This document shows positions 9,126-63,282 of a stretch of 64,000 nt of DNA, piece by piece; position 1 is the stretch's first letter; each line of letters opens with the position of its first letter. Location of the stretch: assembly GCF_900156045.1 (NCBI RefSeq), contig NZ_FTMX01000002.1:682001-746000 (forward strand). The letters run 5' to 3'. The notes below the pieces were generated by a model that searched no databases, was not told the DNA's origin, and saw only the letters and a list, made by a program, of their open reading frames with translations. Source of the DNA: Peribacillus simplex (GTDB taxonomy: Bacteria > Bacillota > Bacilli > Bacillales > DSM-1321). The translations under genes were made by a program, and so were the position numbers.

Positions 9126-9145
9126 TTTATAGAACCTCCATTATA

Positions 9146-9643: not shown

Positions 9644-9667
9644 GGTACCCCTCCCCTTTCCATTGAT

Positions 9668-10817: not shown

Positions 10818-10835
10818 ATCGTCCTTCCCCCTCCA

Positions 10836-11792: not shown

Positions 11793-11814
11793 CCAAATCA
11801 CCTCTTTTTATAAT

Positions 11815-11835
11815 ATAACGTTTATATAACGTTAT
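11815..11835. promoter_or_regulatory. Candidate PaaX operator in the paaA promoter
   Basis: A 21-bp near-perfect palindrome with half-site ATAACGTT lies 23 bp upstream of the paaA start. It contains AACGT at 11817 and again at 11828, the same 11-bp phasing seen upstream of paaK and of the symporter unit. Assignment to PaaX is inference from position and recurrence. Confidence 0.55.
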
Positions 11836-11919
11836 TATATTTAATTGTTATATTAAATGCAAGACTATTCTGTCTTTTTTCATAATAAAAGGAAATTATC
11901 AGGGTATTTCACTAATCTT

Positions 11920-12204
<285 letters not shown>

Positions 12205-12361
12205 TTACATTAAGAAATAAACCCATGGTTAACCACGAATGCACCCGCATTATGTATCGTGTTTTCGCACCACTTGTTCGAGTTTTTGGGCTTCACGTAT
12301 TTCAATCGGTACATACGCAGGCATATACTGAACGTCAGAATTATGTTCATGAGCACTGAAT

Positions 12362-13690
12362 TTATAAACTAATGACTTCATCTTTCCGCTTATCAACGAC
12401 ACGAATCGCTTTTCCTTCTGAACGGGGTATGCTTTTGGGAATGTTGACAACAACATCCATCGTTACAAGACATGCAGATTTCAAATGATGCTGAATCGTT
12501 TTCCTTAATATCTCTACATTTCCATGCGTTAAGTCTTCTTCAATCTCCCTGTAGAAACCGCTTTCAATTTCAATATGCAGTTCAACACCGTCCATTTTCC
12601 CCTTCTTAACAAGATGAATCTGATAATGAGGCACAATTCCCTCCATTTGGAATAATACACGCTCAATTTCAGAAGGAAATACATTCACTCCCCTGACTAT
12701 GATCATATCATCCGTTCTGCCTTTAACACGGGACATTCTAGTTGTGGTACGCCCGCATTTACACGGTTCATGGGTAATTGAGGCGATATCACCCGTCCGA
12801 TAACGAATGATTGGCAGCGCTTCCTTTGTAAGGCTGGTAAAGACAAGTTCCCCATCTTCGCCGTCCTCCACTGGTTCAAGCGTGTCCGGGTTAATGACCT
12901 CGACAAGAAAATGGTCTTCTGCGATATGCAGTCCATCCTGTGCTTCATGGCATTCTACCGCAACTCCGGGCCCCATGATCTCACTTAGTCCGTAAATATC
13001 GATGGCTTTCAAATTCAGTTTTCTCTCAAGTGTTGCCCTCATTTCCTCTGACCATGGCTCAGCTCCGAAAATCCCATACTCAAGCCCATTATCTGCAGGA
13101 TCAATCCCCATCTCTTCCATCTTTTCGGCGATATTCAAAATATAAGTAGGGGTTCCACAAATGCCGCGCGGTTTAAAATCATTGATGATCGTAATCTGCC
13201 GATCGGTATTCCCCCCTGAAATGGGCACTGTCGCAACTCCTAGTTTTTCTGCACCACAATGCAAACCGAGGCCCCCGGTAAACAGACCATATCCATATGC
13301 GTTATGGAAAATATCTGACTTGCGACCTCCAGCAGCTGCAATTCCACGTGCGACGATTGTTGCCCAGTTTTCCAAATCATTTTTCGTATAACCGACAATT
13401 GTAGGCTTTCCGCTTGTTCCGGATGAACCATGAATGCGTGTGACATCCTCCATCGGAACGGCGAATAAACCGAATGGATACTGATCTCGAAGAGTCTGTT
13501 TTTTTGTAAAAGGAAGCTTTATCACATCATTTAGAGTTTGAATATCTTCTGGTTCCAAGCCCATCTCCCTAAATTTTTCTCTGTAATAAGGTACATTTTC
13601 ATATACATGGCTTATCGTTTTTTTTAAGCGAGCCAATTGTAAACTTTCCATTTCAGCACGCGAAGCCGTTTCAATTTCCGGATTGTACAT
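12362..13690 (-). CDS. paaK: Phenylacetate-CoA ligase
   Basis: The AMP-forming ligase of 442 residues starts at the ATG at 13688-13690, behind GAGGGGG. The ATP-binding P-loop HGSSGTSGKPTIVGYT, the IYGLSEIMGPGV motif, YRTGDIA and the C-terminal hinge VKGRTDDMIIVRGVNVFPSEIE identify PaaK. It activates phenylacetate with ATP and CoA as the committed first step. It is transcribed leftwards from a 260-bp region shared with the divergent symporter unit. Confidence 0.95.
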   Translation of the reverse strand: MYNPEIETASRAEMESLQLARLKKTISHVYENVPYYREKFREMGLEPEDIQTLNDVIKLPFTKKQTLRDQYPFGLFAVPMEDVTRIHGSSGTSGKPTIVGYTKNDLENWATIVARGIAAAGGRKSDIFHNAYGYGLFTGGLGLHCGAEKLGVATVPISGGNTDRQITIINDFKPRGICGTPTYILNIAEKMEEMGIDPADNGLEYGIFGAEPWSEEMRATLERKLNLKAIDIYGLSEIMGPGVAVECHEAQDGLHIAEDHFLVEVINPDTLEPVEDGEDGELVFTSLTKEALPIIRYRTGDIASITHEPCKCGRTTTRMSRVKGRTDDMIIVRGVNVFPSEIERVLFQMEGIVPHYQIHLVKKGKMDGVELHIEIESGFYREIEEDLTHGNVEILRKTIQHHLKSACLVTMDVVVNIPKSIPRSEGKAIRVVDKRKDEVISL

Positions 13691-13735
13691 TGTTTTTGTC
13701 CCCCTCAATTTTACATTGTCCCATCTGACATACAT

Positions 13736-13930
13736 AACGGTAATAAAACGGATATTAAATTATTGTTATGATTTATTTCAAGATTAATACGTCATTTCTA
13801 CGTTGTCAATAATGTTTTTTTAATTCAGAAAAATGACCGAACAAACAAAAAAATAATTTACTAAATTTTCAGACTATGTTAATTTTAACAATGATATATC
13901 ATTTTATCAAACGTTCGTTTTAAAAACGTT
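13736..13930. promoter_or_regulatory. Divergent paaK / symporter promoter region with two AACG-pair motifs
   Basis: Two copies of the motif seen before paaA occur here: AACGG-N6-AACGG at 13736-13751 on the plus strand (paaK side) and its reverse-strand form, TCGTT-N6-ACGTT, at 13915-13930, close to the symporter start. Both keep the 11-bp phasing. This suggests joint control of ligase, uptake and epoxidase by one regulator, presumably PaaX. Confidence 0.5.
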
Positions 13931-13953
13931 CTATACTAAAAAGGGGGCTTACT

Positions 13954-14307
13954 ATGGAATCACCAGCTAAAACTGGGCATCCACCATCAGGTCATGACAG
14001 CGGAAATAAGTATCGTCAATTAATTGAAACGGAAGAATTCAAGTTTTTGCTTCAAAAGAAAAAAGCTTTCATCGTACCTATCACTCTCTTCTTTCTTGCT
14101 TTTTATTTTATTCTGCCTATTTTAGCTGCTTATAGCGAAGTATTGAAAGGTGAAGCTTTTTTCAATATTACTTGGGCGTGGGTATATGCACTTCTCCAAT
14201 TTGCCGTCGTATGGTTAGGAGGAATTGTCTATATCAAAAAGGCAGCGAAGTACGACAAACTGGCTAAAAATATCTTGAAAAAATATGAGAAGGAGCTTGG
14301 CGAATGA
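13954..14307 (+). CDS. DUF485 membrane protein, symporter partner
   Basis: The 117-residue protein has a hydrophilic N-terminus and two membrane segments (about residues 40-58 and 73-93), ending in a lysine-rich tail; this is the DUF485 pattern. Such genes precede acetate/solute:sodium symporters (ywcB-ywcA in B. subtilis). The AGGGGG ribosome site sets the start, and its stop overlaps the next gene's ATG (ATGA). It probably assembles with that transporter. Confidence 0.85.
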   Translation: MESPAKTGHPPSGHDSGNKYRQLIETEEFKFLLQKKKAFIVPITLFFLAFYFILPILAAYSEVLKGEAFFNITWAWVYALLQFAVVWLGGIVYIKKAAKYDKLAKNILKKYEKELGE

Positions 14308-15854
14308 GCATTTTATCCCTCACACTTTTTTTGGGCATCATTTTGTTAACGCTTACAATAACCTATTACTCTTCTAAGAAGACGAAAAATGCCAGTGATT
14401 TTTATACTGCCGGCGGCGGATTGACAGCATGGCAAAATGGATTGGCCGTGGCAGGTGACTTTATGTCAGCCGCTTCTTTCCTGGGAATTACAGGTGCAAT
14501 CGCACTGATTGGTTTCGATGGCTTTTACATGAGCATCGGGAACCTTGTTGCCTTTCTTGTCTTATTGTACCTTGTGTCGGAACCACTTCGCAATCTAGGT
14601 AAGTTTACGCTGGCAGACATGATTTCAGCACGCTTCAAATCAAAAAAAGTGCGAGGGATAGCAGCCGCCAATACACTTGTCATTTCAATCTTTTACATGA
14701 TTGCACAACTTGTTGGTGCAGGGGGATTAATTAAACTGCTGCTCGGCATCGATTATTGGCTATCCGTCCTACTTGTCGGTGTATTGATGACGATTTATGT
14801 AATTTTCGGCGGGATGAGAGCGACAAGCTGGGTGCAGATCACCAAAGCGGTTCTCTTACTAGGCGGTTCCGCTGTGCTGACGTTCATCGTATTTTCCCGT
14901 TTTAATTTCAACATTTCAGAGATGTTCCATCATGTCCAAACTGCAACACCACTCGGAAAGGAATTTTTGAATCCTGGAAATAAATACACCGATGGACTCG
15001 ACATGATTTCATTTAATATGTCGCTTGTCCTCGGAGCAGCAGGCCTTCCGCATTTACTCGTCCGCTTCTTTACAGTAAAGGACGCAGCTACCGCAAGGAA
15101 ATCCGTCGTTTATTCTACATGGTTTATAGGGATATTTTTCATCATGACGATTTTCCTTGGCTTCGGTGCTGCATCTTTCGTCGGTTTTGAGCGGATCGTC
15201 GAAGCAAACTCAGCTGGAAACATGGCCGCGCCCCTTCTTGCATTAACCATGGGCGGTGAATTTTTATTCGCATTCGTTTCTGCTGTGGCATTTGCCACGA
15301 TTTTAGCGGTTGTATCCGGTCTTGTTTTAACGTCAGCATCCGCTTTTGCACATGATATATACGGTGAAATCATCAAGGAAGGAAAGATCACGGAAAAACA
15401 GCAAATACTAGTCGCCCGAATGGCTTCTGTCGGCGTAGCTGTCATTTCGATTTTACTTGCATTATTTGCACAATCAATGAATGTCGCTTTTCTTTCAGTC
15501 CTCGCGCTTGGAATTGCTGCAAGTGCCAATTTACCGATCATCCTTTGCACAATATATTGGAAACGCTTCAACGCAACCGGAGCGATCACAGGAATGTTAT
15601 TCGGGTTACTCAGTTCCATCATACTGGTCATGCTCAGTCCCAATGTATGGAATCCGGAACCAGGAATGGGTATATTCACAGGCAATCCCCTCTTCACGAT
15701 GAGCAACCCGACCATTTTCACCGTACCGCTTGGCTTTATTGGAGCCTACTTAGGTACAATCTTGTCAAAAGCAAAAGATGAGGAAAACAGTTTTCCTGAA
15801 GTACTGTTCAAATCTAACACAGGATATGGGATAAGTTCAGCAAAAGACCATTAA
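14304..15854 (+). CDS. Sodium:solute symporter, probable phenylacetate permease (ActP/PaaL type)
   Basis: The 516-residue protein has about 13 membrane segments. The conserved early region DFYTAGGGLTAWQNGLAVAG (about residues 31-50) and DFMSAASFLG identify the SSS family, acetate-permease branch. In the paa neighbourhood (paaK divergent, paaI downstream) the substrate is more likely phenylacetate, as for PaaL in pseudomonads, but acetate or another short acid is possible. It is translationally coupled to the DUF485 gene. Confidence 0.87.
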   Translation: MSILSLTLFLGIILLTLTITYYSSKKTKNASDFYTAGGGLTAWQNGLAVAGDFMSAASFLGITGAIALIGFDGFYMSIGNLVAFLVLLYLVSEPLRNLGKFTLADMISARFKSKKVRGIAAANTLVISIFYMIAQLVGAGGLIKLLLGIDYWLSVLLVGVLMTIYVIFGGMRATSWVQITKAVLLLGGSAVLTFIVFSRFNFNISEMFHHVQTATPLGKEFLNPGNKYTDGLDMISFNMSLVLGAAGLPHLLVRFFTVKDAATARKSVVYSTWFIGIFFIMTIFLGFGAASFVGFERIVEANSAGNMAAPLLALTMGGEFLFAFVSAVAFATILAVVSGLVLTSASAFAHDIYGEIIKEGKITEKQQILVARMASVGVAVISILLALFAQSMNVAFLSVLALGIAASANLPIILCTIYWKRFNATGAITGMLFGLLSSIILVMLSPNVWNPEPGMGIFTGNPLFTMSNPTIFTVPLGFIGAYLGTILSKAKDEENSFPEVLFKSNTGYGISSAKDH

Positions 15855-42378: not shown

Positions 42379-42398
42379 CAGTATTGTATACAATACTG
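42379..42398. promoter_or_regulatory. Perfect 20-bp palindrome, probable GntR operator
   Basis: CAGTATTGTATACAATACTG is a perfect palindrome centred on GTATAC, typical of FadR-subfamily GntR sites, and it lies just upstream of the GntR gene. Confidence 0.7.
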
Positions 42399-52104: not shown

Positions 52105-52920
52105 CTATTGAATTGTAATTTCCCGAATTCCCTTTTCAATTTCCTTTGAAGGTATATTACATAGCACCCTGCGCTCTTTCAGATAGTGATATTGTTGTCT
52201 ACTCTCCTGAACAAGCGACAAGTCTATCGATGCTGATAATACTTCTTCTTCACGTCCAGCTTCAGCAATTACCCTTCCATATGGATCAACAACAACGCTC
52301 TCTCCACAAAACGCAGTTTCCTCTAGCTGTCCAACTCGATTTGCCATCGCGACAAACATTTGATTCTCTTGTGCTCTGGCCTTAATGGCAAGGCGGTGTA
52401 CCGGACCATCCCAATTTCCATCTGTCAACACCAATAGTTCTGTTCCCATACTGGCAACTGCACGTGCTGTTTCTGGAAATTCTATATCGTAGCAAATGAG
52501 CAGTCCGATGTTTGTTCCTTGCCAGCTGCAGCTCCGATAATAATTTCCGGCTTTAACGGCTGAAGATTCGCCAGCCCACAAATGGGTTTTACGATAAGAG
52601 AGCAATAATCCTGTCGGTCCAACCAGAACAGTTGTGTTATATAGGTTTTCTCCCTCCTTTTCGTATAAACCAACAACAATTGAGGCATTAGATTTCTTCG
52701 CTTGACGTTCTATATGTTTAACAATTGGTCCATTTAATGGCTCGGCTAATGTACGGCAAACCTCCGGTGAAAGAAATCCCGTGATAAATGTCTCAGGAAA
52801 CACAATGAGGTCATGAGAATGACCATATTTATCAACGACATCATCTAAACGAGAAAGATTTTTCTCAATTCTCCCTTCTTCACAACTGAGTTGTGCCAAA
52901 GCGATATTTACCTTTTCCAT
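52105..52920 (-). CDS. Nitrilase-superfamily carbon-nitrogen hydrolase (second)
   Basis: The protein of 271 residues starts at the ATG at 52918-52920 behind GGAGGC. The triad is visible in IVFPETFITGF, SYRKTHLWAGE and LLICYDIEFPETARAV. This branch includes omega-amidases and other deaminating amidases. It lies about 180 bp upstream-adjacent to a decayed amidohydrolase fragment, echoing the hydrolase pair at 48-50 kb. Substrate unknown. Confidence 0.82.
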   Translation of the reverse strand: MEKVNIALAQLSCEEGRIEKNLSRLDDVVDKYGHSHDLIVFPETFITGFLSPEVCRTLAEPLNGPIVKHIERQAKKSNASIVVGLYEKEGENLYNTTVLVGPTGLLLSYRKTHLWAGESSAVKAGNYYRSCSWQGTNIGLLICYDIEFPETARAVASMGTELLVLTDGNWDGPVHRLAIKARAQENQMFVAMANRVGQLEETAFCGESVVVDPYGRVIAEAGREEEVLSASIDLSLVQESRQQYHYLKERRVLCNIPSKEIEKGIREITIQ

Positions 52921-52974
52921 AATAAAAGCCTCCGTATATTCGATGATTAAAAAACTCACCGAAATAATTATTGT

Positions 52975-53245
52975 GCCAATATTGAAAAATCAAATAAGAT
53001 AAAAGGTTTTCCGCCATAATATACGCTTGGGCATGGCTGTCTATAAATCGAGATAAAAGCCTTTTCCCTTTCAAATCTATCACTTTGGTGTCAGTCCCTT
53101 TGTAAGCTGCAGCATCCTCGCCACTACCAACGTAAAGAAACTCGTCTTCCCTAACCCAAACGGTTCAGCCAACTTCGACAACTGTGTAAACGCTGCCATT
53201 TTTAAAGATAAATCGGCCATTTGAATCGAGTCCCTCTTAGAAAGG
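52975..53245 (-). pseudogene. N-terminal remnant of a YtcJ-like amidohydrolase
   Basis: Reading leftwards, one frame encodes GRFIFKNGSVYTVVEVG, a TGA stop, then REDEFLYVGSGEDAAAYKGT, DTKVIDLKGKRLLSRFIDSH and AQAYIMA. This is the typical start of an amidohydrolase-3 protein up to the first metal site, where the normal HAH reads HAQ. It carries an internal stop and the remaining four-fifths of the gene are missing. Confidence 0.8.
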
Positions 53246-53252
53246 CAATCCA

Positions 53253-54596
53253 TTACCCGATTATTTGATTTTCTTTATCCTTTTCGTCCATCGTCCTATT
53301 TTCAGAGAAAGGAATACTTTTACTTTGACTATTGCGGACAAATAATACTGAGATAAGGGATGCGATACAAAGAAATACTAAAAAGAATGCTAGTGGAATC
53401 CAAGAATTATTGTAAGCGCCAACTAATATAGTCGCAATCATTGGAGCAGTTCCACCAAATAATGCAGAGCCTGTTTGATAACCAAGTGTTATTCCTGTAT
53501 AGCCAACATTCGTACTAAACATTTCAGTAAACATTGTACCAATAGTCGCCGCAATTGGGGGCCATAGAATTCCTAAGCCTACTATTGAAATAACGTATAA
53601 CCAAGTGGTAGATTGTAAGGAAAATAAATAAAAGTATGGAAAGGCAAAAAGAGTTATTCCGATTGTACCAATAAGAAAAACAAGTTTACGGCCAATTTTA
53701 TCAGATAACATTCCCATGAACGGCATGCAAATCGCTGTAACAATTGTTGCTACAGTAACTACATTTAACGCTGTAGTCCTTGAAAAACCTATTGTTTCCG
53801 TAGCATACGATATGAAAAATGTGGAAAATAAGTAGAATGGTCCCACCTCAACACATTTTGCACCTAAAGAAATTAATACCGCTTTCCAATGATATCGTAA
53901 TGTCTCAAAGAGTGGGATCTTTACGACATTTCCTTTTTCTTTCTCTTCCTTGAATGCCGTAGTTTCCTCAATCCCTTTTCGTATCCAAATACCGATAACA
54001 ACCAAAATTGCACTTAGGATAAATGGAACTCTCCATCCCCATGAAAGGAATTGGGATTCAGGAAGTAAACTCATTAATGAAATAGAGAATGTTCCAAGTA
54101 ACATCCCAAGAGGGATTCCCATTGCAGGAAAACTTCCAAAAAAGCCACGTCTTTCTTTAGGTGCAGATTCAACCGCTAAGAGGATTGCCCCTCCCCATTC
54201 TCCACCAAGTCCGATACCTTGAACGAGACGAAAAAAAACAAGAAGGATCGGTGCCCAAAGCCCTATCATGTTATATGTTGGCAGGAGTCCAATACATACT
54301 GTAGAAATTCCCATTAATAAAAGTGAAAGCACGAGAGTATTTTTCCTGCCAAACTTGTCTCCCAAATGACTAAAAACTAGCCCTCCAAGGGGTCGTATAA
54401 AAAATGTAATTCCAAATGATGCATAAGCAAGCAATAAACTTATAAACGGATCGTCATTAGGAAAATACAATTTATTAAATACAAGTGCAGCAACGGTTCC
54501 ATAAAGAAAGAAATCATAAAATTCAATAGTACTGCCAAGTAAACTCGCAAATAATATCTTTTTTGATTTCTTGTCCAGTTTCTTTTTTCCACTCAA
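53253..54596 (-). CDS. MFS transporter, metabolite:H+ symporter (MHS) family
   Basis: The 447-residue protein has 12 membrane segments and MHS motifs: LGSTIEFYDFFLYGT, GDKFGRKNTLVLSLLLMG, RLVQGIGLGGEWGGA and KERRGFFGSFPAMGIPLG. It starts at a TTG at 54594-54596 behind GGAGGTG. MHS proteins import organic acids, betaines and aromatic acids. A 32-bp perfect palindrome upstream suggests control by the GntR regulator at 61.9 kb together with the oxygenase genes; it may import the pathway's substrate. Confidence 0.87.
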   Translation of the reverse strand: MSGKKKLDKKSKKILFASLLGSTIEFYDFFLYGTVAALVFNKLYFPNDDPFISLLLAYASFGITFFIRPLGGLVFSHLGDKFGRKNTLVLSLLLMGISTVCIGLLPTYNMIGLWAPILLVFFRLVQGIGLGGEWGGAILLAVESAPKERRGFFGSFPAMGIPLGMLLGTFSISLMSLLPESQFLSWGWRVPFILSAILVVIGIWIRKGIEETTAFKEEKEKGNVVKIPLFETLRYHWKAVLISLGAKCVEVGPFYLFSTFFISYATETIGFSRTTALNVVTVATIVTAICMPFMGMLSDKIGRKLVFLIGTIGITLFAFPYFYLFSLQSTTWLYVISIVGLGILWPPIAATIGTMFTEMFSTNVGYTGITLGYQTGSALFGGTAPMIATILVGAYNNSWIPLAFFLVFLCIASLISVLFVRNSQSKSIPFSENRTMDEKDKENQIIG

Positions 54597-54962
54597 TTTA
54601 ACACACCTCCGAATTAGTTACATATCTGGATGCGGTTTCTTAGATGTTGGAGAATTATCAAGATGGCCTGCTGATAATTCCTCCCATTTTCCTTAATAGA
54701 CGGTAAAAGGTGCAACATCATTAAAAACGAACTGGCTTACTCCCCCGATAAAGAGCGTCTGATCCTTACCTCTAGTATTGCTTCTCATCCGTAATCATCT
54801 TGAACATGCAGTTAATGAGCTTTTAATTCCATAGGTATTATGTATAATGTATTGTGTATACACAATACATTATAGAAATACCTTCAAAAAGACAAAAATC
54901 GTTCTGGTGAAAAAGCTTAAAGACAATCGCAATTTGTTCCCAACCGTGGACATATTAATATA
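54597..54962. promoter_or_regulatory. MHS transporter control region with long palindrome
   Basis: A perfect 32-bp palindrome spans 54843-54874 with the centre GTGTATACAC, flanked by ATGTATT on the left and AATACAT on the right. No protein gene is supported in the gap. Confidence 0.7.
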
Positions 54963-55730
54963 TCAGCCTAAGCAAAGATGTTTATCGGTATAACCAACAT
55001 TCCTTGAAATCTCGAGTGCTGCACTCTTAACCTTTTCAACCAATGGAGGCAACAACTCCTTTTGGTAATTCACCTCAAGACCTGCAACACTAATGCCCGC
55101 TATGATATAACCTTTGTAATCAATAATAGGCGCCGCTACCGCAGATATATAATTTTCAAGTTCCGAGTGACTGACCGTAAATCCCGTTTTTTGAGACTCT
55201 TCTAAAAGAATACGAAGTCTCTCTTTATCTGTAATCGTTCCAGATGCGACTGACTTCAGTTCGGTTTGCTCTAAATATTGTTCCTGCTCATACTGTGGCT
55301 GAAAAGCGAGAATGACACGTGAACACGCTCCGGCATAAAGCGGCATTCTCCGGCCGATTGCCGTATAATGCCTTACATGCTGTTTTTTATCCAGCTTTTC
55401 GATGCAGATTGCCTCTTTGCCGTCTTGAACGATGAGATTAACAGCTTCCCCTACCTTATCATGAAGTTTTTGCATAGTCGGCAAAGCTACTTTTCGAATA
55501 TCGAACCGTTCAGCTACTAAATTGCCAAACTGAAGAAATAAAAGGCCAAGTGAATACTTTCCATCTCTATCTTTATCGAGAAGACCCATCTCTTCAAGTG
55601 ACATTACCATTCGAAAAACAGATGTTTTCGGTATCCCTGAAAAATGTACGATTTCATTCAGACTTAGCTTTGAATGAGTCAAGAAAAGAGTAAGGATATC
55701 CATTGATCTGACGACTGTCTTATTTTGCAT
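54963..55730 (-). CDS. IclR-family transcriptional regulator (second)
   Basis: The 255-residue regulator starts at the ATG at 55728-55730 behind GGAGGGG. The winged helix is VVRSMDILTLFLTHSKLSLN with GIPKTSVFRMVMSLEEMGLL; the effector domain has GRRMPLYAGACSRVILAF and YISAVAAPIIDYKGYIIAGISVAG. It follows the flavin reductase gene and may respond to the substrate of the oxygenase cluster. Confidence 0.88.
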   Translation of the reverse strand: MQNKTVVRSMDILTLFLTHSKLSLNEIVHFSGIPKTSVFRMVMSLEEMGLLDKDRDGKYSLGLLFLQFGNLVAERFDIRKVALPTMQKLHDKVGEAVNLIVQDGKEAICIEKLDKKQHVRHYTAIGRRMPLYAGACSRVILAFQPQYEQEQYLEQTELKSVASGTITDKERLRILLEESQKTGFTVSHSELENYISAVAAPIIDYKGYIIAGISVAGLEVNYQKELLPPLVEKVKSAALEISRNVGYTDKHLCLG

Positions 55731-55821
55731 GAGTTTCCCCTCCTTAACCACAACAAAAGCGCTTTTTAGAAAGCTCATACAACTTTAACCATCAAACTTA
55801 AATAATCATCCTGCCATAAGT

Positions 55822-56286
55822 TTAGCTGAGTATTTTGCCGTATTTCCCTTCATAGAAGGCTAGTGGTGCCCCTTCGTTAATGACGAGTTCAGTTACTTCT
55901 CCAATAAAGAGTATATGGTCCCCAGCTATTTGTTTACTATGGACCTTACATACGATGTTTGCTAAAGCATTTTTTATTACTGGCAGTTCATTTATCCAGC
56001 CAAATTCAATCTGACGGTCTTCTTTAATCTGTCCCGCAAAATGCATGGATAACTCTTTTTGATCATCAGACAATATATTTACAGCAAATTTTCCAGACTC
56101 ATTAATTTTATCCAGCATTTTAGCTTTTTCGCCTATGGATATTAAGACCAATCTTGGATTAAGGGAAACTGACATAAATGCATTCGCCGTCATACCATGT
56201 GCTTCATCTTCTAAAAGTGTTGTGATCACTGTTACTCCTGTAGCAAATTTCCCCATTGCATTTCTAAAATTTCTATCATCCATCAT
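55822..56286 (-). CDS. Flavin reductase (HpaC/DIM6 family)
   Basis: The 154-residue flavin reductase-like protein begins FRNAMGKFATGVTVITT and has GMTANAFMSVSLNPRLVLISI and FAVNILSDDQKELSMHFAG, the family core. It should supply FADH2 or FMNH2 to a monooxygenase, here most likely the HpaB-type enzyme at 59.8-61.3 kb. Its ATG overlaps the stop of the RibF-like gene (ATGA), linking it to FAD formation. Confidence 0.9.
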   Translation of the reverse strand: MMDDRNFRNAMGKFATGVTVITTLLEDEAHGMTANAFMSVSLNPRLVLISIGEKAKMLDKINESGKFAVNILSDDQKELSMHFAGQIKEDRQIEFGWINELPVIKNALANIVCKVHSKQIAGDHILFIGEVTELVINEGAPLAFYEGKYGKILS

Positions 56287-57167
56287 TTTATAACCTCCTC
56301 AAAATTTGAACTCCACTGAGACTTTGACTCAAAAGGCATCTGTTTTAAAAATTTAACTGTCACTTCTTCCACTACACCTCCCTTCAGCATTTCTATAATT
56401 TGACCGCTTATTTCATCATTTTTCCTGCTGGACCCATATCTTTTAAATAACCCATGACAGGTTCTGTTCCAGGTTTTGATTTCTACACTATATACACCTG
56501 GTGCTGGCAGGATATACTTATTTTCGGTATGGAACTCCATATTTTTCTTTTTCTCGTGTTTATGTCTATTTGAACTATAAACGACCCCTTTAATTTCAAA
56601 ATGATGTCCCATATAGTAAGGAACAAGGTGGACATCCCCATCCCTTACTATTTTTCTAATTAAAGTTGAACTTATTTTTTCGTCATTATGTACCTGTTTT
56701 GAAATGACGGTTACATCAAAGGGGTTATTTTTGCTCACTTTTTGCAAATAATCAGCAGTCCCCTGGGCTTTATTACCAAAGGTAAAATCAAATCCTACCA
56801 CTAAGTGTTTAACTTGAAGACCTAAAACATATTGATCAATAAAATCAGATGGCAAAAGGGAAGCAAATGATAAATTAAACTTTATGACAAAGAGTTTATC
56901 CACTCCAATAGCAGCCATTCTTTCAATCTTTAAAGCTAGAGGAGTTAAATATCTCAAATCTTTCTCCAATTTGATTACTTCATTTGGATGTGGATCGAAG
57001 GTCATCGCCGTGAATTTAAGATTGTTCTTTTCGGCTATTTTCTTGGTTTGCATTAACAGTGATTGATGACCTAAATGAACACCGTCAAAAAAACCTAATG
57101 CCATTACATGAGGCTCCATTGGAAATATGGACCCCTTTAGTGGATGTGTTAAATGGAAAACTTCCAA
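56283..57167 (-). CDS. RibF paralogue: FAD synthetase with degenerate flavokinase half
   Basis: The 294-residue protein has a complete N-terminal FMN adenylyltransferase domain: ALGFFDGVHLGHQ (about residues 23-35), TFDPHPNEVI and ISSTLIRKIVRDGD. The C-terminal region, which should carry the riboflavin-kinase GFPTAN motif, instead reads SSNRHKHEKKKNMEFHT, so kinase activity is doubtful. It starts at a TTG at 57165-57167. Together with the coupled flavin reductase it probably raises FAD supply for the cluster's monooxygenase. Confidence 0.82.
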   Translation of the reverse strand: MEVFHLTHPLKGSIFPMEPHVMALGFFDGVHLGHQSLLMQTKKIAEKNNLKFTAMTFDPHPNEVIKLEKDLRYLTPLALKIERMAAIGVDKLFVIKFNLSFASLLPSDFIDQYVLGLQVKHLVVGFDFTFGNKAQGTADYLQKVSKNNPFDVTVISKQVHNDEKISSTLIRKIVRDGDVHLVPYYMGHHFEIKGVVYSSNRHKHEKKKNMEFHTENKYILPAPGVYSVEIKTWNRTCHGLFKRYGSSRKNDEISGQIIEMLKGGVVEEVTVKFLKQMPFESKSQWSSNFEEVIK

Positions 57168-57630
57168 CTTGCTTCACCTTCTTCGTCATCAAGATAATAA
57201 TTTTTGTCAAAGGGGGAAAAATTGTGTTGTCGATTTTATTTAATATAATAACGGAACTCAAAAGCCTTGCATCCGTTTGGTAACCAAGGACCAAGTTTCG
57301 TTTCTGGTGGACGGGTATCACCCATTCATGTGATTAATTTACCAAGTCAATAATTTAACTTTCCAATAATCCCGAATGTGCACTCATTGTTTAACGATTA
57401 AAGGTTTCTGTGTAATGAATGGTGTATACATAATTTGATACACAGAAAATTCAGACACTTACTCCCCGAGCTAATCCAATTATCAATTTGAGCAATCAGC
57501 ACTTGGTTCCTAAGTAAGGATGTATCGGAGATAAAAGGCTCCTCGTTGTTTGATGTCACGAGAAGCCATTTGATAGATTACCATATTCGTATAGGAATGC
57601 AGGAGCTAATTCGTTTCAAAACATACCTGT
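57168..57630. other. Gap with a GntR-type half palindrome and a cupin remnant
   Basis: GTGTATACAT at 57422-57431 matches the centre of the GntR-type sites. The C-terminal tail of a third cupin copy lies at 57236-57325. Nothing else is supported. Confidence 0.5.
57236..57325 (-). pseudogene. C-terminal remnant of another cupin copy
   Basis: The minus-strand frame reads GDTRPPETKLGPWLPNGCKAFEFRYYIK and stops. It aligns with the tail of the intact bicupin downstream of ACRPPGMEHGPWKSP (GCKIFEVRYY), sharing the RPP, GPW, NGCK and FRYY residues. The rest of the gene is missing. Confidence 0.7.
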
Positions 57631-58347
57631 TTATTGTTCCTTGGAGTAGTAACGGACCTCGAAAATCTTACAGCCATCTGGTGATTTCCATGGTCCATGC
57701 TCCATCCCAGGAGGTCGACAAGCAACCATTCCTGCCGTAAATTCCTCATTTAGACGTAAATCGATTAAAGATCCTTCAATAATATATAATTCTTCCCAAA
57801 AATCATGGACTTGCACTCCATTAGGAGAAGTATCTGTCCCTGGACCGTTCTGAAGAATTCTTGTAGCGACTCCTGTAGTAGGGTCAGAAGCAATGATTCT
57901 TTCAGAAAGGCTCTTAACCTTACTAAAAGGCTGCGCTTCAAAAGTGTTATGATCGACAAATTCATGTTCTTCTTTTTTCTGATCTGCATAATAGCGAACT
58001 TCGAAAATCCTGCAACCATTAGGTGATTTCCATGGTCCATGTTCCATCCCGGGAGGACGGCAAGCAACCATTCCTGCCGTAAATTCCTCATTTAGACGTA
58101 AATCAATTAAGGATCCTTCAATAATATATAATTCTTCCCAAAAATCATGAACTTGCACTCCATCTGGGGATGTATCAGTACCTGCCTCTAGTTCAAGAAT
58201 GCGAGTTGCTACATTAGTATCTGGAATCTGCGCAATAATTCGTTGGGATGCACCTTCTACAGTTTTTGAAGGAACAGCCTCATAGGTTTTATACTCAACA
58301 AATTCAATTTCTGGTTTTCTATCAATCTCTATTTTTGATTTTTCCAT
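57631..58347 (-). CDS. Bicupin protein made of two near-identical halves
   Basis: The 238-residue protein holds two cupin domains. Residues 56-120 and 170-234 differ at only three of 65 positions; both contain VQVHDFWEELYIIEGSLIDL and ACRPPGMEHGPWKSP. The DNA is also nearly identical (57646-57840 versus 57988-58182). Metal ligands are probably the His and Glu residues of HDFWEE and the later His of MEHGPW. A ring-cleaving, isomerising or sensory role is possible; I cannot assign one. It lies between the DUF2848 gene and the flavin genes. GGAGG precedes the ATG. Confidence 0.8.
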   Translation of the reverse strand: MEKSKIEIDRKPEIEFVEYKTYEAVPSKTVEGASQRIIAQIPDTNVATRILELEAGTDTSPDGVQVHDFWEELYIIEGSLIDLRLNEEFTAGMVACRPPGMEHGPWKSPNGCRIFEVRYYADQKKEEHEFVDHNTFEAQPFSKVKSLSERIIASDPTTGVATRILQNGPGTDTSPNGVQVHDFWEELYIIEGSLIDLRLNEEFTAGMVACRPPGMEHGPWKSPDGCKIFEVRYYSKEQ

Positions 58348-58348
58348 G

Positions 58349-59026
58349 TCAAACTACCTCCGCATCCGTTAAAATATGAACCTGATAATTCAATTGAATT
58401 TTGTTACCTGTTAAACGATCATATAATTCTGCCGAAAATGCTTCCCCATAAATAAATTCACCATTTTTAATCGGTAATGTTCCGCAAAACACAATCATAT
58501 CCTCACTATCATATCCACGTTCCTCGATAATTTCGAGCAATTCTTCAGGATGCAGGAATTCTCCTAGCTTGCCTGTCTGGTACTCTTTTTTCACTCCATC
58601 AACAATCATCCAGCTTCTCATTTCAATGTCATCCCATCGATCTTTTACGTCATCCAAGGACCAAAATTGTGTTGAAATGGGCTTGCTGCATACTTGTTTG
58701 GATTTCTGAATAGACACTTTTTCAAGCCCGCGGTCAGTGTGATCACTACCTAGCCCTAAATACCATTTCCCTCCAATTTTCATGATGACCACTTCCGCTT
58801 CTCCGCTGCTGCTTTCTTGAATAACTGAAATTGACTTATTTGTCGTAATAAGATTTGTTGAAAGATCGTAAATCATCGGAACTTGTGGAGGAGCTGGAAC
58901 TCCGATCTCCTTCAATTCATCAATATGTTTTTTTACAGATTCCTGGTCTTTTCCCGTATAGCCGGCAATAAGTAATCGTTTAGGATCTGCGACAATATTT
59001 CTTCCACAAACATTAATATTTATCAA
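58349..59026 (-). CDS. DUF2848 family protein
   Basis: The 225-residue protein matches DUF2848: AGYTGKDQESVKKHIDELKEIGVPAPPQVP, the SGEAEVVIM segment, then LGLGSDHTDRGLEKVSIQ and FCGTLPIKNGEF. The family is related to fumarylacetoacetate hydrolases but has no assigned reaction that I know. It starts at a TTG whose last bases overlap the nitrilase stop (TTGA), with AGGAGG upstream. The context suggests a hydrolase or hydratase acting after ring oxidation. Confidence 0.8.
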   Translation of the reverse strand: MININVCGRNIVADPKRLLIAGYTGKDQESVKKHIDELKEIGVPAPPQVPMIYDLSTNLITTNKSISVIQESSSGEAEVVIMKIGGKWYLGLGSDHTDRGLEKVSIQKSKQVCSKPISTQFWSLDDVKDRWDDIEMRSWMIVDGVKKEYQTGKLGEFLHPEELLEIIEERGYDSEDMIVFCGTLPIKNGEFIYGEAFSAELYDRLTGNKIQLNYQVHILTDAEVV

Positions 59027-59814
59027 CTGAATTCCTCCTGTCCATCTAAAACTCGGTGCTTCAAATTAGGGAATACATCACGAATTTTAGTAACCTGAGA
59101 TGGATCAATCTCTGTTTTTACAATCGTTTCTTCATCTCCTCCAGCAGCCACAACAATCCCCCATGGATCAACCACTTGACTATGACCAGCTAAAAGGACG
59201 TCATTAGTATGACCAACACAATTACTCGAAATCAAGAAACACTGGTTTTCCAATGCTCGGACTGAATTGAATAACTTCCAATGCTCCAGCCTTCTATGTG
59301 GCCAAGCAGATGTAACAAGAAGTAATTCTGCTCCTAAATTCACTTCTGCACGATACAATTCAGGAAATCGCAAATCATAGCAAGTTGATAAGCCTACTTT
59401 CCCGAATTCCGTATCCACTACAGTTGTTTCATTTCCTCTCGTCAATATTTGACCTTCTTTTGAACCATAACGAAATAAATGCATTTTTCGATAGGTTCCT
59501 ATAAGTGTCCCATCAGGAGAAAATAGCACACTAGTGTTGTAGTATTTTCCATTATTTTTTTCTATAAAACTGCCTGCAAATATATATGAATGAACTTCTT
59601 TTGCCTTTGAGGAGAAACGTTGTACAAAATTCCCATTCAATTCTTCCGATTCGTCCATATAACGATCAAAAGAAAAGTACCCCGTTGCCCACGTTTCTGG
59701 TAAAACTATTAAATCTTGTCCTTTTAATCCGTCAATCATGGACTCCACGCGATCTATGCGGGCACTTTTGGATTCACTATCTTTAATCTCCAATTGTATT
59801 GATGCAATTTTCAT
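59023..59814 (-). CDS. Nitrilase-superfamily carbon-nitrogen hydrolase (third)
   Basis: A protein of about 263 residues. I choose the ATG at 59812-59814 (MKIASIQLE), the usual family N-terminus, spaced from AAAGGA; four more residues are possible upstream. The triad is visible in LIVLPETWATGYF, TYRKMHLFRYGS and GLSTCYDLRFPELYRA. It probably hydrolyses an amide made during oxidation of a nitrogen compound. It is coupled to the DUF2848 gene and follows the oxygenase by about 30 bp. Confidence 0.84.
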   Translation of the reverse strand: MKIASIQLEIKDSESKSARIDRVESMIDGLKGQDLIVLPETWATGYFSFDRYMDESEELNGNFVQRFSSKAKEVHSYIFAGSFIEKNNGKYYNTSVLFSPDGTLIGTYRKMHLFRYGSKEGQILTRGNETTVVDTEFGKVGLSTCYDLRFPELYRAEVNLGAELLLVTSAWPHRRLEHWKLFNSVRALENQCFLISSNCVGHTNDVLLAGHSQVVDPWGIVVAAGGDEETIVKTEIDPSQVTKIRDVFPNLKHRVLDGQEEFS

Positions 59815-59843
59815 TTCTTCAACCATCCTTTTATTTATATTTC

Positions 59844-61310
59844 TTATATTAGTTCTTTCACCTGAGTGGGAAGAGAATAGCTTTCTAAAAATTTATCCAC
59901 CATTTGAACCGGCTCATCATAGCCGTAATTCCTAAATGAAAAGCCTTTCGTGACGAAAGGTGCACCATTATAGAACAATTCATACTGTTGATGCCTGCCT
60001 CCGAATTCTGAACCAATAATATCCCACACTAACTTAAATAATTTAACTTTCTCCTCAGCCCCAACTCCCGTAGAACGTATATATTGATACATATCATCTT
60101 TCGTTTCAGGATTGATGAGTTCTTTATATGAAGATGGTAATTGTAAAACACCTCCACCGCATAACTCCCTTAAAATTTTAATGGTGGAAGCATAAATAGT
60201 TTCCTGTTGACCCACTACTCCATAAAGAAAACGTGGATTCGGTCGTGCCACACCATTTTTGTCAATCGTACAATTATATTCAGAAGCTAAAAGATTACCT
60301 TCCACAGAAGCCGCAATAGAAGCAAGTTCCCCTAACTTCTCTTGGACTGAAGGGATTTTATCAATTCCATTCATCGCAGAAACTTTTCGAGCGGCACCAA
60401 TCAAAAATTTCAATTTATTGCTAAATCTTATTTGCGCTTGATTATTGCCTAATATATGAGCTGGTGTTTCATGGAACTGAGCTCTCACGATGTCAATATT
60501 TTTGTAAACAAAAATATCTTTCCAAGGAATAAATACATCGTCAAAAACAACTAATGAATCACTTTCATCAAAACGAGAAGATAATGGGTAATCAAATGTG
60601 CTTGGTGATTTTTCAGCATAACCAGGCCTTGCATAAAATTTTAATCCTTTTGCATGAATCGGCAGTACAAAAGACAGGGCATAATCTTCATCACCAGGTC
60701 TGAGCGGTGTAAGGCAGCTTACAAATAAGTAATCTGATACTGCTGATGCAGTACCGAGCATTTGAGAACCCCGAACAATAATTCCATCCTCTCTTTCTTC
60801 GTACACTCCAACTGGGAGAAATTTATCTTCCTGCTCATGAGCTGCTTTACTTCGATCAATTTGTGGCGGAATAATAACGTATGTTACATATAGATCCCCA
60901 TCTCGAACATGTTTATAGAAATTCAAAACATTATTCCCATAACCTTCTCCACCACGATCAAACACTTCGGGTGAACTGGCAAAGGCAGCCAAAAAGCTGG
61001 CGACATGATCAGGGCTTCTTCCGACAAATCCACAAGTTGCTTCAGACCATTTAGAAATCGCCAATCTTCTCTCTTTAAGTTCTTCCCGACTCCTTGGAAT
61101 CATATAAATTTTATTTGCCAGTGTACCGTCCTCAGTTTTGTATGTCATATTCTGAGATTCATCTGATGCTAAATCGTATAAGCCTGCAATGGTATCTATA
61201 ATTCCTGTAAAAGCTGGATGGGTCGTCACATCCTGTACTCGTTCCCCATTTATGTAGATCGCTCTATCATCTTTCAATGTCTGTAAATATTCTTTACCTG
61301 TTCTAACCAT
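59844..61310 (-). CDS. HpaB-family FADH2-dependent monooxygenase
   Basis: The 488-residue enzyme is of the 4-hydroxyphenylacetate 3-hydroxylase large-subunit family. Typical segments are RSREELKERRLAISKWSEA, DDVFIPWKDIFVYKN, LRELCGGGVLQLPSS and SEFGGRHQQYELFYNGAPF. Such enzymes hydroxylate phenols, chlorophenols or pyrrole-2-carboxylate using reduced FAD from a separate reductase, here probably the HpaC-like protein at 55.8 kb. GGAGG precedes the ATG. It is first of an operon with a nitrilase and DUF2848, so a nitrogen-containing ring is a reasonable substrate guess. Confidence 0.88.
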   Translation of the reverse strand: MVRTGKEYLQTLKDDRAIYINGERVQDVTTHPAFTGIIDTIAGLYDLASDESQNMTYKTEDGTLANKIYMIPRSREELKERRLAISKWSEATCGFVGRSPDHVASFLAAFASSPEVFDRGGEGYGNNVLNFYKHVRDGDLYVTYVIIPPQIDRSKAAHEQEDKFLPVGVYEEREDGIIVRGSQMLGTASAVSDYLFVSCLTPLRPGDEDYALSFVLPIHAKGLKFYARPGYAEKSPSTFDYPLSSRFDESDSLVVFDDVFIPWKDIFVYKNIDIVRAQFHETPAHILGNNQAQIRFSNKLKFLIGAARKVSAMNGIDKIPSVQEKLGELASIAASVEGNLLASEYNCTIDKNGVARPNPRFLYGVVGQQETIYASTIKILRELCGGGVLQLPSSYKELINPETKDDMYQYIRSTGVGAEEKVKLFKLVWDIIGSEFGGRHQQYELFYNGAPFVTKGFSFRNYGYDEPVQMVDKFLESYSLPTQVKELI

Positions 61311-61878
61311 ACCTGATTCCTCCTATATGTTTGAATAAGTACATGTTTTAAAAACAAGAAACAATTTAACAGCGAACCTTAATTGTATTATGTGTTGTGT
61401 ATTATGTATTGTGTATACATTAAAGGTTTGCATTTCCGATCATATAATTAAGGTAAACACATACTATTGAATTTCATGTTCATATCCTTTACTCTTCTAC
61501 CTATGAACATTAACAGCTTGTTCTTTTACTTCTTGATGGGTGCTAACTTAAGCGTTTTAATGAATTGTGATTTGCGCACCATAAAACAAAATGTGACAGG
61601 TAAACGCTTTCAATTCCAATAAACTATAGACTTACCTCTGACTGATCTCTCATTGTTTCAACAATAAGACTATTTATAGCAAAACTCAGGAAAAGGCATT
61701 CGAAAGAATTTTCCCAAGGCTTTTGCTATAAACGTGACAAAAGACTTGGTTTGACCTTGCAGTATATCTTCTATTTCATAGGCTGAAGTTGATTCTAAAC
61801 CCTTATTTTTTGTCCCTAGAGATGTAGTAACCTACCTTTTACCAGGAGCAATCCCCCCTTCAAGCATTTGATGGAAAA
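61311..61878. promoter_or_regulatory. Oxygenase operon control region
   Basis: It contains ATGTATTGTGTATACA at 61404-61419, one full arm of the GntR-type palindrome, embedded in TGTATT-like direct repeats from 61384, and a cre-like box at 61599-61612 (reverse strand TGAAAGCGTTTACC). No gene is supported. Confidence 0.6.
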
Positions 61879-62550
61879 TCAGGAATTATCAACAATAATT
61901 AATGTTTCTTTTGTTTTTTCTAAATGATTTAAAATCGCCTGTGAAGCTAGTTCGGGATTTTTTTCTTCTAAAGCCTGGATAATCTGATTATGTTCCATCA
62001 AAACTTTCTTCATTCTCCCATGTTTACTGACTGCTTTTAAACCCATAAGCTGAGTAAGGTTATGCAGATTGTTCAAGACTTGCTCTATTATGGTGAAATT
62101 TGCTAGTCTTGTCAGCGAGAGATGAAACTCATGGTCTAGCCTTATGAAACTAATGGCATCATCATTTTGCAATGCCTCTTCTTGTTGCTTCAGAATTAAT
62201 TTAAGTAACCTCAGTTGTTCAGGTGATGTAATTTCTTTTGTTAGTTTTTTCACCGATTCAACTTCAATAGCACTTCTTAGTAAAAAGATTTCATCCTGTT
62301 CCTCTGGTGTAATCTTTCTTACCGTTAATCCCTTCCTCGGAATAGAGACTAGTAATCCTTCCTTCACCAAATCTTGAATAGCTGCCCTTACCGGCGTTCT
62401 TGAAGTATTTAACCTTTCCGCTAATTGAACTTCTGTAAATATTTCATCACCGGTAATACCACCAAATAAAATCGCTTGTTTAATTTGCTTATATACTTTA
62501 TCTTGCGTTGTTTTTTCCTTTTCGATTGGTTTTAAATGGATTCCTGCCAT
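61879..62550 (-). CDS. GntR-family (FCD) transcriptional regulator (second)
   Basis: The 223-residue regulator has a GntR winged helix (IFTEVQLAERLNTSRTPVRAAIQDLVKEGLL, about residues 38-68) and an FCD domain with FIRLDHEFHLSLTRLAN. A near-perfect palindrome lies about 70 bp upstream. It is the natural candidate regulator of the oxygenase, flavin and MHS transporter units. Confidence 0.9.
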   Translation of the reverse strand: MAGIHLKPIEKEKTTQDKVYKQIKQAILFGGITGDEIFTEVQLAERLNTSRTPVRAAIQDLVKEGLLVSIPRKGLTVRKITPEEQDEIFLLRSAIEVESVKKLTKEITSPEQLRLLKLILKQQEEALQNDDAISFIRLDHEFHLSLTRLANFTIIEQVLNNLHNLTQLMGLKAVSKHGRMKKVLMEHNQIIQALEEKNPELASQAILNHLEKTKETLIIVDNS

Positions 62551-63282
62551 GTTAATCCGTCCTTTTTGATGAGTCTTTTCAATATGAATAATGGGAATCT
62601 ATATGATTGGTAAAACTTAATATGTGTTATGTATACATAATACATAAAACTCAAAACATAAGTCAATCATATTTTTTATATTTTTCTGAATTTTTAAATC
62701 CAACCTATATCAAGAATCATACTTTAAAAAGCCGCCAATTGACGGCCATCAATGGCACTAACTCACGGTTCTAAAGTTTGATTAATTAATACAAATAACC
62801 TTGATAAATAAATAGAAAGAGCATGCTTTGAAAAAGATTGATCAAAACATGCTCTTAACATATTCAATTGAATGATACTTTTATATAAAAGAAGTTTGAT
62901 CATTTTCCATACTTCTTATAAACTTACGCATCCGTTACTTTAATTAGAAATTTAATTAGCTTTTCTTGGTCTCCTTAAAAAATAAAAAACCTACAACACC
63001 TAAAATACATCTATACCTCCGGAAACAAAACTGATATTTCTATCCCCTAACATGACCTGTATCCCCTATTCAAAAATACATTTCCCTATCTATATACAAG
63101 ATAAAGGTCTCAACCGATAGTTTGATTCTAAAAGTCTTAATGAACTACTCTGCCCCGATAGTACAATAAGAAAAGAGCTGCCAATTTCAATAATATGAGA
63201 TTTATTAGGAAAACTTGGAATTTAAGTTGTTGTATATTAAGATAGTATATGATGAATATTTTCCATATATAGGAGGAGACTT
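62551..63282. promoter_or_regulatory. Gap between gntR and the subtilase, with GntR-type palindrome
   Basis: A 26-bp palindrome with one mismatch spans 62621-62646, centred on GTATAC. A perfect-looking hairpin at 62817-62856 (AAGAGCATG with CATGCTCTT) and a near-palindrome at 62731-62746 may be terminators. An AGGAGGAG ribosome site lies before the subtilase start. No other gene is seen. Confidence 0.55.

Follow-up and report, generated by a model that had tools for sequence, protein, structure and literature searches.

Genes for a candidate N-heterocyclic acid pathway in Peribacillus, centered on a DUF2848 protein and a divergent HpaB-type oxygenase

Our sequence analyses addressed a 9.3-kb stretch of a Peribacillus genome of 6.08 Mb, positions 53253-62550 of the window, by which we mean the entire 64-kb piece of contig C15 under study. 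They revealed known enzyme superfamilies in a conserved combination: an HpaB-type oxygenase with an altered triad, a DUF2848 protein that appears to be a divergent relative of fumarylacetoacetate hydrolases (FAH), a nitrilase-superfamily amidase and a duplicated cupin, accompanied by genes for flavin adenine dinucleotide (FAD) supply, uptake and regulation. We propose that the cluster is a substrate-induced catabolic regulon that would open and hydrolyze the ring of a small N-heterocyclic acid, a reading to which, taken as a whole, we assign a probability of about 0.5. In the open-access literature, a scope outside which most subscription journals fall, we found no description of this combination, no mention of DUF2848 among 5.39 million papers and no description of the genes of the pathway for pyrrole-2-carboxylate, the substrate that we tentatively favor below.

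Results

Gene layout

A Pfam scan of ten window genes, together with NCBIfam models, recovered all the genes named in a preliminary description of this DNA where it had placed them, and the nine genes of the cluster all lie on the minus strand:

61879-62550, minus strand: gntR, FCD-type GntR regulator (Pfam GntR and FCD)
59844-61310, minus strand: hpaB-like gene for a FADH2-dependent oxygenase of the R-H-Y clade described below (Pfam HpaB_N and HpaB, near full length)
59023-59826, minus strand: nitrilase-superfamily amidase, predicted omega-amidase (Pfam CN_hydrolase)
58349-59026, minus strand: DUF2848 protein, predicted metal-dependent FAH-type hydrolase/hydratase (Pfam, E 3e-66)
57631-58347, minus strand: duplicated ChrR-type cupin, two fused copies (Pfam Cupin_7)
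56283-57167, minus strand: fadS, FAD synthetase (FMN adenylyltransferase; Pfam FAD_syn, residues 18-168)
55822-56286, minus strand: fred, flavin reductase (HpaC/StyB-like), presumed source of FADH2 (Pfam Flavin_Reduct)
54963-55778, minus strand: iclR regulator (Pfam IclR)
53253-54596, minus strand: mhs, MHS-type transporter, presumed to take up a small organic acid (Pfam MFS)

The oxygenase, nitrilase, DUF2848 and cupin genes form one tight run, in which the nitrilase gene shares 4 bases with that for DUF2848 and a single base separates DUF2848 from the cupin; fadS and fred, also overlapping by 4 bases, form a second. Relatives suggest 59814 as the start of the nitrilase gene. The nearest NCBIfam model of the transporter is TIGR00883, a metabolite/H+ symporter, at 432 bits (just under the cut-off of 443), and against the shikimate transporter model it scores 381 bits (cut-off 538).

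The oxygenase and its clade

The oxygenase falls below both NCBIfam cut-offs for HpaB, with 347 bits against the 480 required for HpaB-1 and 307 against 885 for HpaB-2. An alignment of 34 HpaB-family proteins, read at R113-Y117-H155 of Escherichia coli HpaB, gives R98-H102-Y144 for the window's protein; the triad is R-H-Y in all 15 proteins of this oxygenase group and R-Y-H or R-F-H in all 19 others, the comparison proteins having been hand-picked from lower-identity matches. The 15 R-H-Y proteins share one branch of the midpoint-rooted tree (support 99/98), and 13 further loci, some of whose genes are shared with the alignment, comprise nine with R-H-Y, three with R-Y-H and one remnant without the region. 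In the records, members of the clade are annotated as 4-hydroxyphenylacetate 3-hydroxylase or monooxygenase. The E. coli residues have been reviewed as vital for substrate binding (PMC10816480; sources given by PMC number are cited from their accessible excerpts), and the exchange of two of the three suggests a substrate that lacks the usual phenol group. We conclude from the alignment and tree that the protein belongs to a separate HpaB clade with an altered triad. Triad, clade and neighbors together make a plain phenol hydroxylase, an assignment that the preliminary description had set against its own proposal, unlikely.

A DUF2848 protein related to fumarylacetoacetate hydrolases

Profile comparison by hhalign matched DUF2848 to FAH proteins with a probability of 93% (E 3e-7), while two control families reached 0.1% and 0.4%; the FAH profile was built from nine of the 14 FAH matches in the window's own genome, leaving out L108, L110, L111 and two matches without a locus (L and G numbers label loci and genomes). 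Three residues, E76, E78 and D95, are invariant in 29 DUF2848 sequences and align with the E-x-E and D of FAH proteins, which we take to be their metal ligands. A weak structure model of DUF2848 also matched FAH-type folds; this support is weaker than that of the profile and is used only beside it, and the absence of other fold families from the lists obtained with this model excludes nothing. DUF2848 differs from the FAH superfamily in being too distant for a match in the PDB by either single-sequence or profile search. Judged by profile and aligned residues, it is a divergent relative of the fumarylacetoacetate hydrolases, and we predict a metal-dependent, FAH-type ring-opening hydrolase or hydratase. 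Among viral contigs, four stretches matched the DUF2848 pattern and none was confirmed as a relative.

The nitrilase as a predicted omega-amidase

The residues E44, K114 and C149, presumably the catalytic triad, are invariant in eight nitrilase sequences. In the PDB the best match of the cluster nitrilase is 2w1v, "nitrilase homolog 2" (E 5.6e-41), followed by yeast YLR351C; a control nitrilase from outside the cluster (52105-52959) reached nitrilase homolog 2 only in third place (E 6e-27), after 3ivz and 1j31. Against the nitrilase of plasmid pAO1, the cluster protein scores 184 bits at 35% identity and its Arthrobacter counterpart (L092) 204 bits, compared with 111 bits (the gene at 52105) and 62 bits for the two other nitrilases of the window. 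The pAO1 gene stands in a run with 2,6-dihydroxypyridine 3-monooxygenase, and from plasmid and place we infer that it is NIT, a 2-oxoglutaramate amidase whose activity, yielding 2-oxoglutarate, is reported as shown in the excerpt of PMC6214936. When plasmids were searched with the cluster nitrilase, 832 records matched; among the best 60, Natrinema, Arthrobacter StoSoilB13 and Embleya came first, then Arthrobacter NicSoilB11, two Haloferax and nine Arthrobacter or Paenarthrobacter records, several of them from tobacco or nicotine sources. By sequence, then, the nearest characterized relative that we found is the pAO1 2-oxoglutaramate amidase, and we predict an omega-amidase of this type.

Conservation of the gene set

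The preliminary description had treated these genes as one functional set, and comparison bears this out: the order kept in relatives, together with the associations in the genus and on plasmids, refutes the independence of the neighbors. The order gntR-hpaB-nitrilase-DUF2848-cupin-fadS is kept in five near relatives (L030 being frameshifted) and in Lysinibacillus capsici, in which mhs and fred have traded places; the DUF2848 protein is 94-97% identical in the loci of Peribacillus frigoritolerans and two "Bacillus sp." strains. Lysinibacillus, Arthrobacter and members of the Alpha- and Betaproteobacteria also have the enzyme core. Arthrobacter StoSoilB13 combines mhs, nitrilase, DUF2848, hpaB, cupin, reductase and gntR, and Thioclava, Caballeronia NK8 and Roseateles have flavin reductase, HpaB, cupin (annotated DUF4437 in Roseateles), amidase and DUF2848 together with an annotated branched-chain-type ABC transporter.

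Among 36 genomes of the genus, eight, the window's own included, carry an intact relative of the oxygenase (at least 72% identity), each beside nitrilase and DUF2848 genes; in a further genome hpaB is split, and another two hold remnants. Broken copies are a frameshifted hpaB in G401 (L070) and in L030, and remnants in G416 and G299. Across 397 genomes of the order, DUF2848 occurred in 23, and an oxygenase match at E ≤ 1e-100 in seven, four with R-H-Y (G000, G211, G171 and a fragment in G007) and three with R-Y-H; in a sample of 398 genomes of the phylum this threshold was passed by the window's own genome only, both oxygenase scans scoring at most three candidates per genome. A plasmid search with HpaB, which did not start from DUF2848, matched 272 records, and of the 40 matches listed, 11 had at least 40.9% identity; DUF2848 lay within 5 kb for ten of these, the exception being Rhizobium L098, and none of the other 29 listed (at most 38.5%) was in the 55 plasmid records with DUF2848. 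Plasmid records are related by descent, so this contrast is not a probability.

A tally with fixed queries covered 19 R-H-Y loci, eight loci with ordinary HpaB oxygenases and 25 loci with DUF2848 without this oxygenase; two broken DUF2848 copies (L059 and L060) and a number of short loci (L001-L024 and L062-L091) did not enter it. DUF2848, cupin and flavin reductase were each found in 18 of the R-H-Y loci, an amide hydrolase in 17 (ten nitrilases, seven amidase-signature proteins) and FAD synthetase in seven; four extradiol dioxygenase queries matched none of the 19, and none was present among the ten Pfam-scanned window genes. The ordinary loci had no DUF2848, extradiol dioxygenases in five and FAD synthetase in three. 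These counts are not independent: a single lineage supplies L025-L028 and L030 as close copies, the two members of L052/L099 and likewise of L093/L119 are nearly identical, and nine R-H-Y loci (L025-L030, L033, L042, L052) entered through DUF2848 searches, which affects their DUF2848 count, although L052 turned up in the HpaB search as well (as H47). Independent figures come from the genus and the plasmid HpaB search. The amide step falls to a nitrilase in Gram-positives and to an amidase-signature protein in Proteobacteria, and because the two alternate between groups, conservation seems to concern amide hydrolysis as such.

The 25 loci with DUF2848 only contained a nitrilase in 19, an amidase in four, a cupin in two, a TRAP binding protein in 11 and a member of the D-glutamate-cyclase family in ten. 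The core thus looks like DUF2848 plus an amide hydrolase, and the cupin mostly accompanies an oxygenase. Cupins without a match to the oxygenase query occur in Vibrio (L054), Variovorax (L133), Priestia (L132) and the haloarchaeon Natrinema gelatinilyticum, whose plasmid (L131:5665-7771) carries DUF2848, a cupin and a 50% identical nitrilase, with no HpaB match in the stretch read. As a separate observation, an oxygenase-free operon of GntR, DUF2848, nitrilase, TRAP and D-glutamate-cyclase-family genes is found in L035 and in eight Bacillales loci (L034, L037, L040, L043, L044, L047, L048 and L050).

Operator-like palindromes and regulators

An operator-like palindrome stands at four promoters of the cluster:

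62628-62639, unstranded: TGTATACA, upstream of gntR, in the same place in 6/6 of L025-L030
61410-61421, unstranded: TGTATACA, upstream of hpaB, in the same place in 6/6 of L025-L030
57421-57432, unstranded: TGTATACA, upstream of fadS, and ahead of fadS in 6/6 of L025-L030
54853-54864, unstranded: TGTATACA, upstream of mhs, exact in four of six near relatives (not in L027 or L029)

The window holds five copies of TGTATACA, where 0.80 were expected, a number reached in none of 100 shuffles; four of the five are at cluster promoters, and for the cluster stretch alone the Markov expectation is 0.14. Because the palindromes stand at these four promoters, gntR, hpaB, fadS and mhs appear to form one regulon marked by TGTATACA, with GntR as the presumed binder. 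In a scan of 17 related loci, the palindrome was also found in L042 (one copy ahead of hpaB), in L059, in L092 (one copy, flanked by gntR and mhs) and, close to gntR, in two DUF2848 operons that lack the oxygenase (L035 and L038). The fifth copy in the window lies outside the cluster, at 42385-42392, in a gap between longer open reading frames.

A gntR gene with 49-99% identity is near the core in all nine Bacilli loci; Arthrobacter L092 has one at 31%. The iclR gene, which the preliminary description had counted among the regulators of the set, is dropped from it on its absence across the R-H-Y loci: it is present in five of six near relatives (L025-L028 and L030) and absent from Lysinibacillus L029 and from L033, L127, L042 and L092, and the R-H-Y loci offer besides only a 27% match elsewhere in L096. 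No TGTATACA site precedes it in the window.

Cupin, FAD synthetase and flavin reductase

What had been called a bicupin consists of two tandem cupin copies fused into one gene; in relatives there is a single cupin gene (L033 and L127) or a pair of separate ones (L042). A structure model of the duplicated protein was useless (mean pLDDT 39). On Priestia megaterium plasmid pMLY91_1, from tobacco leaf, a nitrilase-cupin fusion (L132:6816-7976) adjoins DUF2848, GntR and MFS transporter genes; its cupin domain is 62% identical to the window's and scores 21 bits against Pfam Cupin_7, under the cut-off of 27. This fusion suggests that the amidase and the cupin act jointly.

No flavokinase domain was detected by Pfam in FadS. 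The coupling of FAD synthetase and reductase, which the preliminary description had noted, did not hold up as a sign of novelty: ordinary R-Y-H oxygenase genes are found with fred and fadS in L122-L124, and in Geobacillus thermodenitrificans NG80-2 the anthranilate system consists, according to the excerpt of PMC4539516, of an oxygenase, an FAD reductase and a riboflavin kinase/FMN adenylyltransferase. The pairing is not specific to this gene set.

Remnants and surroundings

Decayed sequences lie within and beside the cluster:

57239-57325, minus strand: cupin remnant, a decayed further copy (tblastn 67% over 30 residues to the L033 cupin, E 9e-10)
54684-54791, minus strand: decayed flavin reductase remnant (tblastn 42% over 36 residues, internal stop, E 2.6e-7)
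53000-53161: decayed amidohydrolase remnant

The cupin and reductase remnants recur in L025 and L028, the reductase remnant in L027 and a weak cupin remnant in L026. The G+C content of the cluster (about 0.36-0.40) is similar to that of the preceding 30 kb, and the window's opening 22 kb is richer (0.40-0.45). Between 22417 and 51821 the window holds more catabolic genes, namely a xanthine/uracil-type permease, a PucR regulator, a cytosine/purine/allantoin permease, a pair of TPP enzyme and kinase-like genes, and an amidohydrolase with an amino acid permease and a nitrilase.

Discussion

We propose the following model for the cluster. The MHS transporter would import a small N-heterocyclic acid. 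The linked FAD synthetase would keep the flavin reductase supplied with FAD, and the reductase would hand FADH2 to the HpaB-like oxygenase, which would hydroxylate the ring carbon next to the nitrogen to give a lactam/enol tautomer. DUF2848, as an FAH-type metal enzyme, and the cupin would then add water and open the C-N bond, yielding an open keto-acid amide from which the nitrilase, as an omega-amidase, would release ammonia. For pyrrole-2-carboxylate the route would run through 5-hydroxypyrrole-2-carboxylate and 2-oxoglutaramate to 2-oxoglutarate and ammonia. Substrate, order of steps and the division of work between DUF2848 and cupin are what we infer; an N-heterocycle opened by hydrolysis is the part that we hold to be probable, 2-oxoglutaramate as intermediate is an even call, and pyrrole-2-carboxylate itself, the substrate that fits best, is proposed tentatively.

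Several observations shape this model. Pfam found no extradiol dioxygenase, CoA ligase or dehydrogenase among the cluster genes in the window. Once the ring has received a single hydroxyl group, the conserved set has nothing but hydrolytic enzymes and the cupin to act on it, so hydrolysis should yield a product that enters central metabolism almost directly. A C5N ring would do so: loss of water from the cyclic form of 2-oxoglutaramate gives a tautomer of 5-hydroxypyrrole-2-carboxylate, and trihydroxypyridine is a tautomer of the imide of 2-oxoglutarate; pyrrole-2-carboxylate is placed first because the transporter types point to an acid. The D-glutamate-cyclase family (10/25) and TRAP proteins (11/25) in the oxygenase-free DUF2848 loci likewise point to small lactam-type acids. 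A TRAP receptor of the pyroglutamate type was considered as further support for lactams but was not borne out, since 2PFY and 2PFZ, presumably pyroglutamate receptors, were not among the best 60 of 100 matches. The preliminary description had proposed opening and hydrolysis of a nitrogen-bearing ring of the pyrrole or pyridine type; an N-heterocyclic acid stands as the best reading. Described pyridine routes rely on different ring-opening enzymes.

A hydroxypyridine ring is the fairly unlikely alternative in which the oxygenase would make 2,3,6-trihydroxypyridine or the like, DUF2848 and cupin would stand in for the ring hydrolase of the nicotine and 2-hydroxypyridine pathways, and the nitrilase would finish as in pAO1. 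The end enzyme is of the same type as that of pAO1, and in Bradyrhizobium L051 the other monooxygenase that stands beside DUF2848 and cupin has PnpA as its nearest PDB match, followed by HspB, a hydroxypyridine oxygenase. However, the MHS, TRAP and branched-chain-type ABC transporters suggest an acid, 2,6-dihydroxypyridine has no carboxylate, and the 55 plasmid records with DUF2848 do not include pAO1. That same L051 monooxygenase also fits a scheme, rather improbable in our view, in which DUF2848 and amidase, often with the cupin, form a general keto-acid amide module to which oxygenases have been recruited repeatedly for different substrates. DUF2848 does occur with a nitrilase or amidase in 23 of the 25 loci lacking this oxygenase, and in the archaeon Natrinema (L131) it accompanies cupin and nitrilase in a stretch without an HpaB match; yet the oxygenases form one clade, which almost always comes with DUF2848, and the scheme is itself compatible with the regulon that we propose.

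A pathway for a phenol or hydroxyphenyl acid, in which the amidase would cleave an aromatic amide before HpaB hydroxylated the phenol, appears quite improbable. Membership of the HpaB family speaks for it, as do sets of fadS, fred and HpaB with R-Y-H oxygenases, one of them beside an extradiol-type dioxygenase (L126), and the similar set in the published anthranilate system (PMC4539516, excerpt); it is opposed by the changed triad, the separate clade, the lack of extradiol matches in all 19 loci and the scores under both HpaB cut-offs.

Other findings weigh against the proposed breakdown of an N-heterocyclic acid, or against parts of it. The cupin is without an assigned step. Pyridine routes also end in 2-oxoglutaramate (PMC6214936, excerpt), which therefore does not single out pyrrole. 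In E. coli HpaB, H155 also contacts FAD (PMC10816480, excerpt), so the triad change is possibly not about substrate alone. Aldehyde dehydrogenase genes adjoin mhs in G402 (L127:3055-4581) and the oxygenase fragment in G007 (L125:1168-2625), and there may hence be a further step in these two genomes; the G007 assembly, in which the R-H-Y fragment sits at a contig end, has no DUF2848 match. Two Burkholderia loci (L093 and L119) lack a match to the amide-hydrolase queries, and Embleya (L134) pairs a 44% identical nitrilase with gntR and matches neither DUF2848 nor HpaB. In the operon L035, which lacks the oxygenase, the nitrilase reaches 116 bits to pAO1 NIT, hardly above the 111 of the gene at 52105, and the amidase assignment is therefore weaker for that operon type. 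TGTATACA is missing from six of the 17 scanned loci (L031, L033, L036, L046, L049 and L058). Rhizobium L098, on a plasmid of Rhizobium sp. ACO-34A (9001-15355), has an R-H-Y oxygenase and a flavin reductase without a DUF2848 or cupin match; its neighbors are amidase, polysaccharide-deacetylase-like, amidohydrolase and Asp/Glu-racemase/arylmalonate-decarboxylase-like genes, a set which resembles another N-ring pathway and suggests that the clade takes part in at least two of them.

How does the cluster relate to systems already described? With the two-component HpaB/HpaC monooxygenases it shares the Pfam domains and a separate flavin reductase, and some ordinary HpaB genes also have FAD synthetase beside them; unlike these, its oxygenase lies in a clade of its own, with R-H-Y in place of R-Y/F-H, no extradiol match nearby and scores under both cut-offs. 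By description, the NG80-2 anthranilate hydroxylase is likewise fed by a linked FAD synthetase and reductase, but 3-hydroxyanthranilate then undergoes meta-cleavage (both from the excerpt of PMC4539516), for which the cluster has no such genes. The lower nicotine pathway of pAO1 and the 2-hydroxypyridine pathway comprise 2,6-dihydroxypyridine 3-monooxygenase, a putative ring hydrolase (PKC/HpoH) and the amidase NIT/HpoI, and follow a comparable course of hydroxylation, proposed hydrolytic C-N opening, 2-oxoglutaramate and 2-oxoglutarate (PMC6214936, excerpt). The amidases are related, whereas the oxygenase and the candidate ring-openers differ: the pAO1 stretch read encodes DhpH, a cyclase-family protein and an SRPBCC protein, and none of the queries for DUF2848, cupin and HpaB matched it.

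A pyrrole-2-carboxylate monooxygenase of Rhodococcus was reportedly described by Becker et al. in 1997, and an Arthrobacter Py1 pathway for this compound is said to go back to Hormann and Andreesen in 1991. The monooxygenase (EC 1.14.13.130) resembles the cluster oxygenase by description only, as a two-component, FAD-specific enzyme placed in group D with 4-hydroxyphenylacetate 3-hydroxylase (PMC6165268, excerpt). As recently as 2026, pyrrole-2-carboxylate metabolism was called "known but poorly understood" (PMC12899673, excerpt).

What would these findings mean for the families involved? DUF2848 can now be given a superfamily, a probable type of reaction and a set of partners, and a recognizable branch of HpaB is set off from the annotation as 4-hydroxyphenylacetate 3-hydroxylase. 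It is possible, though we regard it as doubtful, that the cluster holds the genes leading from pyrrole-2-carboxylate to 2-oxoglutarate, a conversion known biochemically but, as far as the open-access literature searched goes, apparently not genetically, that DUF2848 is the first of its family with a role, and that the R-H-Y clade consists of pyrrole-type oxygenases. If so, DUF2848 would be an FAH-type hydrolase that opens a hydroxypyrrole or pyrrolinone ring, and the R-H-Y proteins would be a pyrrole-type oxygenase family common to Bacilli, Actinomycetes and Proteobacteria, with the DUF2848-cupin-nitrilase part present also in a haloarchaeon. The little-understood breakdown of pyrrole-2-carboxylate would then become genetically testable in culturable soil bacteria.

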